Shown here in pieces: positions 8,462 to 10,408 of a stretch of 64,000 nucleotides of DNA. Under the pieces are notes generated by a model. That model was not told where the DNA came from. It made no database searches and worked only from the letters and a program-made list of their open reading frames with translations. The translations under genes and the position numbers were made by a program. How positions within the stretch are numbered: the first letter of the stretch is position 1; each line of letters begins with the position of its first letter. The stretch is taken from positions 1,240,001-1,304,000 of the forward strand of contig NZ_CP093366.1 of assembly GCF_023380265.1 (NCBI RefSeq), written 5' to 3'. Source of the stretch: Bombilactobacillus folatiphilus. GTDB lineage: Bacteria > Bacillota > Bacilli > Lactobacillales > Lactobacillaceae.

Positions 8462-10408
8462 TTAAATACTCAATATATCATCATACTGAATACCACTAGC
8501 ATTGAGAATCTCAATTGTATTCAATTTCTCACTATCTTTGCTAAACCCAGTATCTTGTAAAACCACTGATACATCTTCCAATTTTTCTTTTTTAATAATT
8601 TCTATAATTCTATCTGCCACTTGGACATTAATATTTGCGCCTAAAACGATAAACAAAGCACCATAGGCAATCTTATAAATGTCTGCTTGAGCTAAACTCT
8701 CTTTTTCGATTGGCAAAGTTAATTCAAGTCCTTGCTTTAACATAATTTCATAGACTAAATCAGCCGTACTAGAATCATCTGTTAGATTATTTTCGCCCAA
8801 CTTTAATTGCTCAGCCAATTTGTCTGGATTCGTATCCCACTTGCGAATATTAGATTTATCTAATTCAAACACTTTAAAGCCAGTGTCTAATTTATCAGCA
8901 AATAATGGATTTTCATTAATTATCTTATCACCAGCGCGTCGAATCCGTTCTTCAGCAATATCTGGAATGGTACGATAGCCATCTTTATAAGCATCAGACT
9001 TCTTGTCTAGTTGTTCTGGCAACTGCACCATAATAAACTTACGATGCCCGCCATCTTCAGCATTAAGCTGCATAACAGCATCAGCAGTGGTTGCAGAACC
9101 AGCGAAAAAGTCTAAAATAATAGAGTCTTTATCAGAACCATACTTCATTATCCTTTTAATGAAATAAATTGGTTTAGGACTATCAAACACACTCTCACCG
9201 TCAAATAACTCATCTCTTAAATATTTTGTAGCCTGCTGATTCATATAAGCATTATCGACAGCGAATAATGAATTAACTGTACCATATTTACTCTTCAATT
9301 CATTTACATAACTTTTAACAATAAAGCCACGTTTATTTTTTTCTAACGTTTTACTAAAAACTAATTTTCCACTATCAATCCACGCATCCATCGTTTTCTT
9401 TGAAAAAGCCCAGTAGCGACCCTTAGGCGGTAAATCAATTTTTCCTGTATATGGATTTTTAATTTCAAAATATGTTCCATCAGAACCACTTCGAGCACTG
9501 GGATTTTCAGATTTCCATGGACCATTAGGATCATTATCAGAATTTTTATAATCTTCGAGATTCTTTTTATCACCACGCAAAGCCATTAAATCGCAATTTT
9601 TAGCGTATATATATAAGCTCTCATTTTGCTGATTAAATCCATTTTGAGGATCATTAGCGGCAGATCTAGTTTTTCTAATAATCTTACCTATAAAATTATT
9701 TTCACCATATAGTTCATTAAATATCAACTTTAAATTTTCATCTTCATTTTCATCTATCGAGACAAAAATTACGCCATCATCAGTCAATAAGTTACGCGCC
9801 AACTTCAATCTTGGATACATCATATTCAACCAATTAGTATGGTAGCGACCATTTGTTTCTGCATTAGTTTTTACTTTATTATTATCATCGTCTACTTGAC
9901 CTGTTTGTTCCAGATAACTTCCCATTGAATCATGAAAATTATCCTTATAAACAAAATCCTTGCCCGTATTATACGGTGGATCAATATAAATTAACTTCAC
10001 TTTATTAGAATAAGATTTTTGTAAAATTTTTAGAACTTCAAGATTATCGCCTTCAATATATAGATTCTTCGTCTTATCCCAGTTTCTAGACTTTTCTTTA
10101 TTAGGTTTCAACGTCGCCGTTGTTGGCTGCTGGGTTAACTTCATCGACTGCATTTTACCATGCCAAGTAAAATTGTAGCGTTCTGGATTTTCTTCAACTT
10201 GATCACCTAAAATTTGCTTTAGCTTATCAAGATCAATCTTACCGTCACTAGCTACTTCTGGCACGTCCTGCACCAGTCGCCTAATTAAATCAGTCCGTAA
10301 ATCAAGTGATTCTTCAGATACACTATTTAGTGTCTGTCTGTCTGTCTGTCTGTCTGTCTGTCTGTCTGTCTGTCTGTCTGTCTGTCTGTCTGTCTGTCTG
10401 TCTGTCAT
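8462..10408 (-). CDS. mod: Phase-variable Type III DNA methyltransferase, Mod subunit
   Basis: A 648-aa beta-class adenine methyltransferase: DPPYNTG near residue 144 and LDFFAGSATTADAV near 430-443, with a target recognition domain between them. The protein starts with M followed by TDRQ six times, encoded by 19 copies of a tetranucleotide directly after the ATG. In this assembly the repeat number keeps the frame open (ON). Loss or gain of one unit would frameshift the gene within 30 codons, giving the ON/OFF switching known for mod genes of Haemophilus and Neisseria. The N-terminal 165 and C-terminal 200 residues closely match the next mod upstream, while the middle differs. The ribosome site AGAAGGA lies 10 bp before the ATG. 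Confidence 0.95.
   Translation of the reverse strand: MTDRQTDRQTDRQTDRQTDRQTDRQTLNSVSEESLDLRTDLIRRLVQDVPEVASDGKIDLDKLKQILGDQVEENPERYNFTWHGKMQSMKLTQQPTTATLKPNKEKSRNWDKTKNLYIEGDNLEVLKILQKSYSNKVKLIYIDPPYNTGKDFVYKDNFHDSMGSYLEQTGQVDDDNNKVKTNAETNGRYHTNWLNMMYPRLKLARNLLTDDGVIFVSIDENEDENLKLIFNELYGENNFIGKIIRKTRSAANDPQNGFNQQNESLYIYAKNCDLMALRGDKKNLEDYKNSDNDPNGPWKSENPSARSGSDGTYFEIKNPYTGKIDLPPKGRYWAFSKKTMDAWIDSGKLVFSKTLEKNKRGFIVKSYVNELKSKYGTVNSLFAVDNAYMNQQATKYLRDELFDGESVFDSPKPIYFIKRIMKYGSDKDSIILDFFAGSATTADAVMQLNAEDGGHRKFIMVQLPEQLDKKSDAYKDGYRTIPDIAEERIRRAGDKIINENPLFADKLDTGFKVFELDKSNIRKWDTNPDKLAEQLKLGENNLTDDSSTADLVYEIMLKQGLELTLPIEKESLAQADIYKIAYGALFIVLGANINVQVADRIIEIIKKEKLEDVSVVLQDTGFSKDSEKLNTIEILNASGIQYDDILSI
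10331..10406 (-). repeat. 19 x TGTC tetranucleotide repeat (phase-variation tract)
   Basis: Seventy-six bases of perfect TGTC units (GACA on the coding strand) beginning at the second codon of mod. The gene is in frame with 19 units, so by arithmetic 16, 19 or 22 units are ON and other counts are OFF. Tracts of this length in mod genes are known to slip during replication. Confidence 0.97.

Follow-up and report, generated by a model that had tools for sequence, protein, structure and literature searches.

A GACA repeat at the start of a Type III mod gene as a probable on/off switch of a restriction operon in Bombilactobacillus folatiphilus

Described repeat-controlled systems and the operon of B. 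folatiphilus

The closest described counterparts of the gene analysed here, which we call mod2, are modA, modB, modD, modM, modH, and modS, all of which share with it the kind of product (a Type III Mod with a DPPY and an AdoMet motif), a 5' repeat that shifts the reading frame, and a single ON frame. The mod2 of Bombilactobacillus folatiphilus differs from those genes in its GACA unit, in its host genus, and in being known from sequence alone, while the operon around it differs from theirs in containing a helicase, a DUF4391 protein, and an interrupted tandem Mod. A GACA-switched mod2 nevertheless falls within a known kind, that of the Type III mods controlled by simple sequence repeats (SSRs). 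According to the available text of PMC6265453, the GAGCA(n) tract of Streptococcus suis modS varies in length both between strains and within cultures; to the extent which that text describes, mod2 resembles modS in its Gram-positive host and in being a Type III mod with the repeat within its 5' end, but its tract is built of GACA instead of GAGCA, the modS unit being found in a mod from a different genome of the family (GAGCA x30, locus L110). EcoP15I (PDB 4zcf), for its part, has subunits that mod2 and the adjoining res match by sequence, although mod2 scores higher against the Mod of 6k0w than against the EcoP15I Mod. To our knowledge, EcoP15I has no repeat tract and neither a helicase nor a DUF4391 partner.

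Within the portion of the literature available to us, we found no report of a repeat-switched mod in Bombilactobacillus or in the helicase-DUF4391 type of operon; nor did a literature search return any paper considering phase variation, Type III restriction-modification, and the Lactobacillaceae jointly, and the accessible part of a 2026 review (PMC13076061) contains no word starting with 'lactobacill'. The preliminary description of this locus had stated that such switches are less often described in a lactobacillus-like organism, which statement is fair for the literature on lactobacilli, as far as that was accessible, but not for the genomes, since tracts were not rare in the family genomes surveyed below. 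The host was indeed lactobacillus-like, its GatB being 88% identical to that of Bombilactobacillus thymidiniphilus and 83% to those of B. mellis and B. bombi.

The window, by which we mean the whole stretch of 64,000 nucleotides analysed, contains an operon on one strand, running from window position 16377 to 5469 in the order helicase, DUF4391, mod1, mod2, res, with the following features:

13102..16377, minus strand: SNF2-type helicase, 1091 aa, best PADLOC model 'HKD+Snf2'; conserved operon partner
12367..13095, minus strand: DUF4391 protein, 242 aa; conserved operon partner
10439..12322, minus strand: mod1, the tandem paralogue, in ORFs 12322-11189 and 11182-10439, interrupted at codon 378 by an in-frame TAG
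12302..12320, minus strand: short interrupted GACA tract at the mod1 start, 19 nt (two GACA, ACA, two GACA)
10409..10438, minus strand: mod1-mod2 spacer, containing AGAAGGAAA, a putative ribosome-binding-like sequence
10331..10406, minus strand: (GACA)19 simple sequence repeat, codons 1-26 of mod2 (TGTC x19 on the plus strand)
8462..10408, minus strand: mod2, Type III DNA adenine methyltransferase, 648 aa, with DPPYNTG at 143 and FAGSATT at 435
5469..8441, minus strand: res, Type III restriction subunit, 990 aa, with GTGKT, IDEPQ, QKIGRG, and PD...ETK

The mod2 product matched PF01555 (N6_N4_Mtase) in Pfam, the MTase_III model in PADLOC (E 9.6e-213), and, by sequence, the solved Mod structures PDB 6k0w and 4zcf; with its DPPY and FxGxG-like motifs and its kinship to the EcoP15I Mod, the protein has the hallmarks of the Mod subunit of Type III restriction-modification, in agreement with the identity first proposed for it. 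The adjacent ORF 5469-8441 combines helicase and PD-(D/E)XK domains and matched ResIII, RE_endonuc, the REase_III model (E 1.3e-277), and PDB 4zcf_C; this res appears intact, as all four motifs checked are present. A helicase-DUF4391-Mod-Res cassette is therefore represented by its four genes, in order and on one strand, plus an extra mod; and the complete Res, the helicase, and the DUF4391 protein beside mod2 suggest a working defence operon. In the literature examined, we found no paper that linked DUF4391 to restriction. None of the six terminator-like sites in the window lies between mod1 and mod2, and a promoter-like TTGACA-16-GATACT just upstream of mod2 was discounted because such sites are no commoner than in shuffled sequences (54, against a shuffle mean of 57.7).

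Other defence genes lie nearby. A second Type III system, of the EcoP15I class, occupies window 2138-4204 and 28-2136 and continues in L287 3125-4012; near window 11-28 its Res falls into two ORFs, because of which split its Mod, mod3, may act without restriction. At window 3182-3240, mod3 contains an in-frame 24-bp repeat (x2.5) that places copies of RSHLANIV between its two motifs and may alter the protein while leaving the frame unchanged. Beside the operons we also observed a ParE-like ORF (window 4810-5088, slightly below the Pfam cut-off), an AbiD gene (Abi_2; 16523-17215), and a gene for a DUF4357 protein (PADLOC PDC-S14; 17613-18818), all of which form with the operons a defence island adjoining housekeeping genes such as gatB.

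The GACA tract and the reading frame of mod2

Tandem Repeats Finder, when run on the window, reported a perfect (TGTC)19 at 10331-10406 (period 4, 19.0 copies, 100% matches), as many copies as had been counted in the preliminary description. That description had located the tract directly after the ATG, which placement at the start codon is right except for one nucleotide: the ATG of mod2 is at 10408-10406 on the minus strand and the GACA tract begins at its third base, thus overlapping the G. The further claims, that 19 copies keep the tract in frame and that any change in copy number not divisible by three closes the gene, were both reproduced in silico over the range of 15-24 copies, in which the mod2 frame was open only at 16 (644 aa), 19 (648 aa, the ORF 8462-10408), and 22 copies (652 aa), and met a stop after 21-33 aa at 15, 17, 18, 20, 21, 23, and 24. 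The repeat unit inside the ORF, being indivisible by three, accordingly shifts the frame, as in the SSR phase-variable mods. Apart from the mod2 ATG itself, no upstream ATG, GTG, or TTG reads into the tract; 3' of it the first in-frame starts are two GTG codons (46 and 49), followed by an ATG at codon 86. The 76 nt of the tract constitute the longest period-4 stretch in the window, for which the maximum in 100 dinucleotide-preserving shuffles was 16 and the value for the window minus the tract was 14; furthermore, within the 1.64-Mb genome the GACA x5 pattern is confined to this site.

In our estimation, the (GACA)19 is very probably a slipped-strand contingency switch of mod2 that turns the modification and restriction of the operon on and off, and the designation of mod2 as a phase-variable Type III mod is, by its sequence and by comparison with relatives, well supported. 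Replication slippage, which we infer for B. folatiphilus, would add or remove 4-nt GACA units; one copy count in three would keep mod2 in frame (ON, the state of the assembly), and the other two would stop its translation after about 20-30 codons (OFF). A Type III Res is known to cut only together with Mod. Because mod2 is the sole uninterrupted Mod of the operon and Res needs a Mod, modification and restriction would go on and off jointly; the OFF cells, as we infer from the operon, would lose both and would in this way be safe. The return to ON, in turn, would expose an unmethylated chromosome to Res and Mod, which cost calls for an explanation. With a working switch, a culture of such lactobacilli may contain restriction-on cells alongside restriction-off ones, which would bear on phage resistance, on transformation, and on the uptake of DNA, and colonies of one strain could differ in their methylomes.

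A loss of mismatch repair was considered as the cause of so long a tract and was rejected, MutS and MutL being present in all seven Bombilactobacillus genomes; a general mismatch-repair defect is therefore not at hand to drive slippage, which point we counted against the switch.

Alleles in relatives and other readings of the tract

One genome of B. folatiphilus was examined, and length variation was looked at in relatives only. Within the genus mod2 had matches in two of seven genomes, its own included, the other (G006) being distant, with 35% identity over the longest part. The helicase-DUF4391-Mod-Res order recurs in distant bacteria (e.g., L010, L011, L018, L128, and L133), a DUF4391 match being present in 30 of the 175 loci with any match to the operon proteins, some of which loci overlap. 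The same order is found on plasmids of Enterococcus, Lactococcus, and Levilactobacillus brevis, and in Latilactobacillus sakei in a copy with an insertion. The plasmid mod of Enterococcus casseliflavus starts with ATG(ACGA)5, in frame and with the tract sited as in mod2; that of L. brevis has (ACGA)8 at the equivalent site, likewise in frame; and two L. sakei records with identical mod starts have a net +4 nt relative to E. casseliflavus and are out of frame, this mod being also interrupted further on by an insertion element. Three distinct plasmid alleles at the mod2-equivalent site thus differ by whole units, one of them being out of frame, which whole-unit differences support slippage at that site. 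As to a phage origin of the operon, we rejected it: the viral contigs searched contained no DUF4391 relative, and nothing close to the E. casseliflavus mod start was found in phages.

Two further observations we counted against the slippage-switch explanation. Thirteen plasmid records match the E. casseliflavus start, of which ten were read, with H26-H28 (E. faecium) left out; and among the operon alleles of E. faecium and E. faecalis, the six records read of the nine listed have no tract. In addition, the nearest protein relatives of mod2 are mostly without a tract: among the matches listed (49-58% identity), a tetrapeptide repeat within the first 70 residues was present in 11 of 120 and was only two units long.

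What the switch would first act upon is a separate question. Because a complete res adjoins mod2, the switching of restriction together with modification would be the likelier first effect, and we consider the switching of restriction itself at least as likely as a true phasevarion, in which Mod2 would alter the methylation at many promoters and regulate host genes, restriction being incidental. Bombilactobacillus inhabits the bee gut, and a host-associated genus would suit regulation of that kind. Phasevarions have been reported, in the text available of PMC7394358 and PMC6265453, for SSR-controlled Type III mods of host-adapted pathogens; with the Res complete, however, and the helicase and DUF4391 protein alongside hinting at a working defence operon, we regard this reading as possible, if on the unlikely side.

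The tandem arrangement of mod1 and mod2 raises another alternative. The two genes look like a tandem duplication that included the spacer before the start codon: in the alignment, the spacer preceding mod1 resembles the mod1-mod2 spacer, and, counted per 100 alignment columns, 73-94% of the DNA positions are identical in the N-terminal arm and 66-88% in the C-terminal one. Since the 19-nt tract of mod1, like the 76-nt tract of mod2, equals 1 modulo 3, the mod1 start frame is kept without a long tract. In the middle, where the recognition region would be expected, the identity is 37-59% per 100 columns, as opposed to 66-94% in the arms taken together, so that the two Mods might differ in specificity and share the Res, with the tract setting the specificity of the latter and the partner remaining constant or spare. 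Tandem Mods before a Res recur in G180, in the Lactococcus plasmid pUCCL633B, in L028, and in L015, the pairs in the last two loci having similar ends and divergent middles. In G180, which is probably a Lapidilactobacillus, the first Mod has no tract, and an (ACGA)20 follows an ATG after two further genes, one of them KwaB-like; the contig ends inside the (ACGA)20 and another contig opens within a second Mod, and the two presumably join, which junction would place the tract before the second Mod only. Nevertheless, mod1 is interrupted in the B. folatiphilus genome, the Lactococcus plasmid has a broken second Mod, and two open Mods with a tract are found in G180 alone, whose contig breaks in that very tract, for which reasons we judge a switch of specificity to be unlikely. 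The two genes between the first Mod and the repeat of G180 (L129 7769-9352; a 324-aa KwaB-like product and a 200-aa one with no Pfam match) are perhaps a Kiwa-type pair within the operon.

A miscount by the assembler, as a result of which the true copy number would differ and the assembled ON state might not be the commonest, might be suspected from the contigs of G180 and G027, which end or begin in their tracts; the mod2 tract, however, is perfect and lies inside a 1.62-Mb contig, and a miscount, which we hold to be improbable, would alter the phase and not the switch. Finally, that the tract should be an inert microsatellite encoding a harmless and rarely changing N-terminal tail is very improbable, since, despite the existence of proteins with in-frame TNER tails, by which such a tail seems tolerated, and the presence of the mismatch-repair genes, several different repeat units are enriched at mod starts and the alleles differ by whole units, one of them out of frame. 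Should the slipped-strand switch of mod2 work as proposed, the repeat-switched methyltransferases would extend beyond pathogens, to commensals of the insect gut and to the mobile plasmids that lactic acid bacteria carry.

Repeats at mod starts and leader ORFs in the family genomes

For the survey, mod-like places were obtained from one search with mod2, which gave them, among the matches listed, in 76 of 397 genomes; G106:C8 and unlisted places, those of G158 and G207 among them, were left out, and a further search, with mod3 as the query, yielded almost the same set of genomes, from which none was added. We classed 86 mod-like ORFs (210-743 aa, fragments included) and counted only those with a complete upstream region, which were 81, the repeats being sought from -250 to +120 of the start. 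A repeat was present near the start in 8 of the 81 mod-like ORFs versus 3 of 257 other ORFs whose upstream region was likewise complete, for which difference the one-sided Fisher p of 7e-4 is optimistic because the 81 ORFs are mutually related. As regards the three other ORFs, the one in L109 sees the mod's own tract, and L127 had been fetched through the repeat match of the query. The mod-start repeats were the following:

Tetra- or pentanucleotide repeats: GACA x19 (window), AGAC x20 (L109), GAGCA x30 (L110)
Further repeats of four or five nucleotides: TCAC 9+9 flanking a masked stretch (L116), ACTCA x10 (L117), ACTCA x11 (L146)
Short units: AC x18 (L102), G11 (L173)

The run of 11 G in L173 (about 2364-2374; G385) splits a Type III-like mod into two frames.

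In L117, L146, L116, and L102, the repeat belongs to a small ORF that is separate from the mod, lies upstream of it, and has an ATG of its own. Of the three frames of that leader, the long one has its stop at the start codon of the mod (TAATG, TAGTG, ATGA, or 5 nt inside), whereas in each of the other two the stop comes over 100 nt earlier; and the stretch from the repeat to the mod contains a hairpin with 12-13 pairs, after which come 6-7 T. The control set comprised 58 ORFs, from which, beside the four leaders, three with an in-ORF repeat were set aside and two with a short upstream region were dropped, thus leaving 49 repeat-less mods for comparison. The open frame and the hairpin occurred together in 4/4 leaders and in 0/49 repeat-less mods (singly, the open frame in 8/49 and the hairpin in 0/49), under thresholds chosen after the four leaders had been seen and with the starts of L102 and L116 moved to an ATG inside the listed ORF. 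L117, at 10 copies, is in the long frame, whereas its near relative L146 (11 copies) and L102 (18 copies) are not; the leader of L116 includes masked bases.

This layout is like that of the pil1 locus of Streptococcus gallolyticus, where, according to the accessible text of PMC3894217, a leader ORF carries the repeat, a terminator precedes the controlled gene, and the frame decides whether translation proceeds past it; the difference, as far as that source goes, is that pili are controlled there and mods in our four loci. A phase-variable attenuation of these mods by leader and terminator-like hairpin is thus possible, in which only the long frame would carry ribosomes past the transcription terminator to the mod start. 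In the window the pil1-type layout is absent from mod2, whose repeat lies inside the gene itself. A mod controlled by a repeat leader is not described in the available portions of PMC3711429 or PMC4176332, and in the literature accessible to us the only leader-peptide case concerned pili; the leader-terminator layout would constitute a second, testable way to switch a methyltransferase. That lactic acid bacteria generally switch their restriction-modification genes by repeats, either in the mod itself (as might be the case in the window and in G180, a tandem pair sharing one Res included) or through a leader and terminator (L102, L116, L117, L146), is a generalization that we advance tentatively, as one with somewhat less than an even chance of holding. 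In S. suis, GAGCA tracts without a 119-bp linker have been interpreted, in the text available of PMC6265453, as unlinked to mod; those tracts might conceivably be of the leader type.

The family genomes were also searched by repeat unit. GACA x7 or more was found in five of the 397 family genomes, one tract each (the window mod, L109, G158, G027, and G168), and four of the five tracts were located at a restriction-modification gene or no more than 140 nt from one, G168 having no recognised gene. In G158 (L230 3234-3359), an ATG is followed at once by 13 GACA copies, which precede a Type ISP restriction-modification gene and are, in the assembly, out of frame with its long ORF; and in G027, where the tract is cut by the contig start, a gene for a 767-aa N6 methylase lies 140 nt downstream. 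ACGA x6 or more was found in two of the 397 genomes, in both upstream of a DNA methylase gene: in G180, and in G093, where about 220 nt, some of them masked, separate the tract from an open frame that has an N6_Mtase domain. In G188, the reversed control pattern (AGCA repeats) was observed on both strands, with pieces of mod at contig ends too, and in Anaerotignum lactatifermentans a GACA x15 (L031 151-210) lies about 8 kb from a mod relative. Four viral contigs matched ATG plus GACA repeats, three of which were without a methylase by eye; in the contig IMGVR_UViG_3300035188_001195 (L229 1404-1435), the ORF that holds the GACA x8 has no Pfam match, and about 850 nt separate the repeat from a downstream gene matching N6_N4_Mtase, so that repeat tracts close to methylases are not limited to operons of the bacteria themselves.
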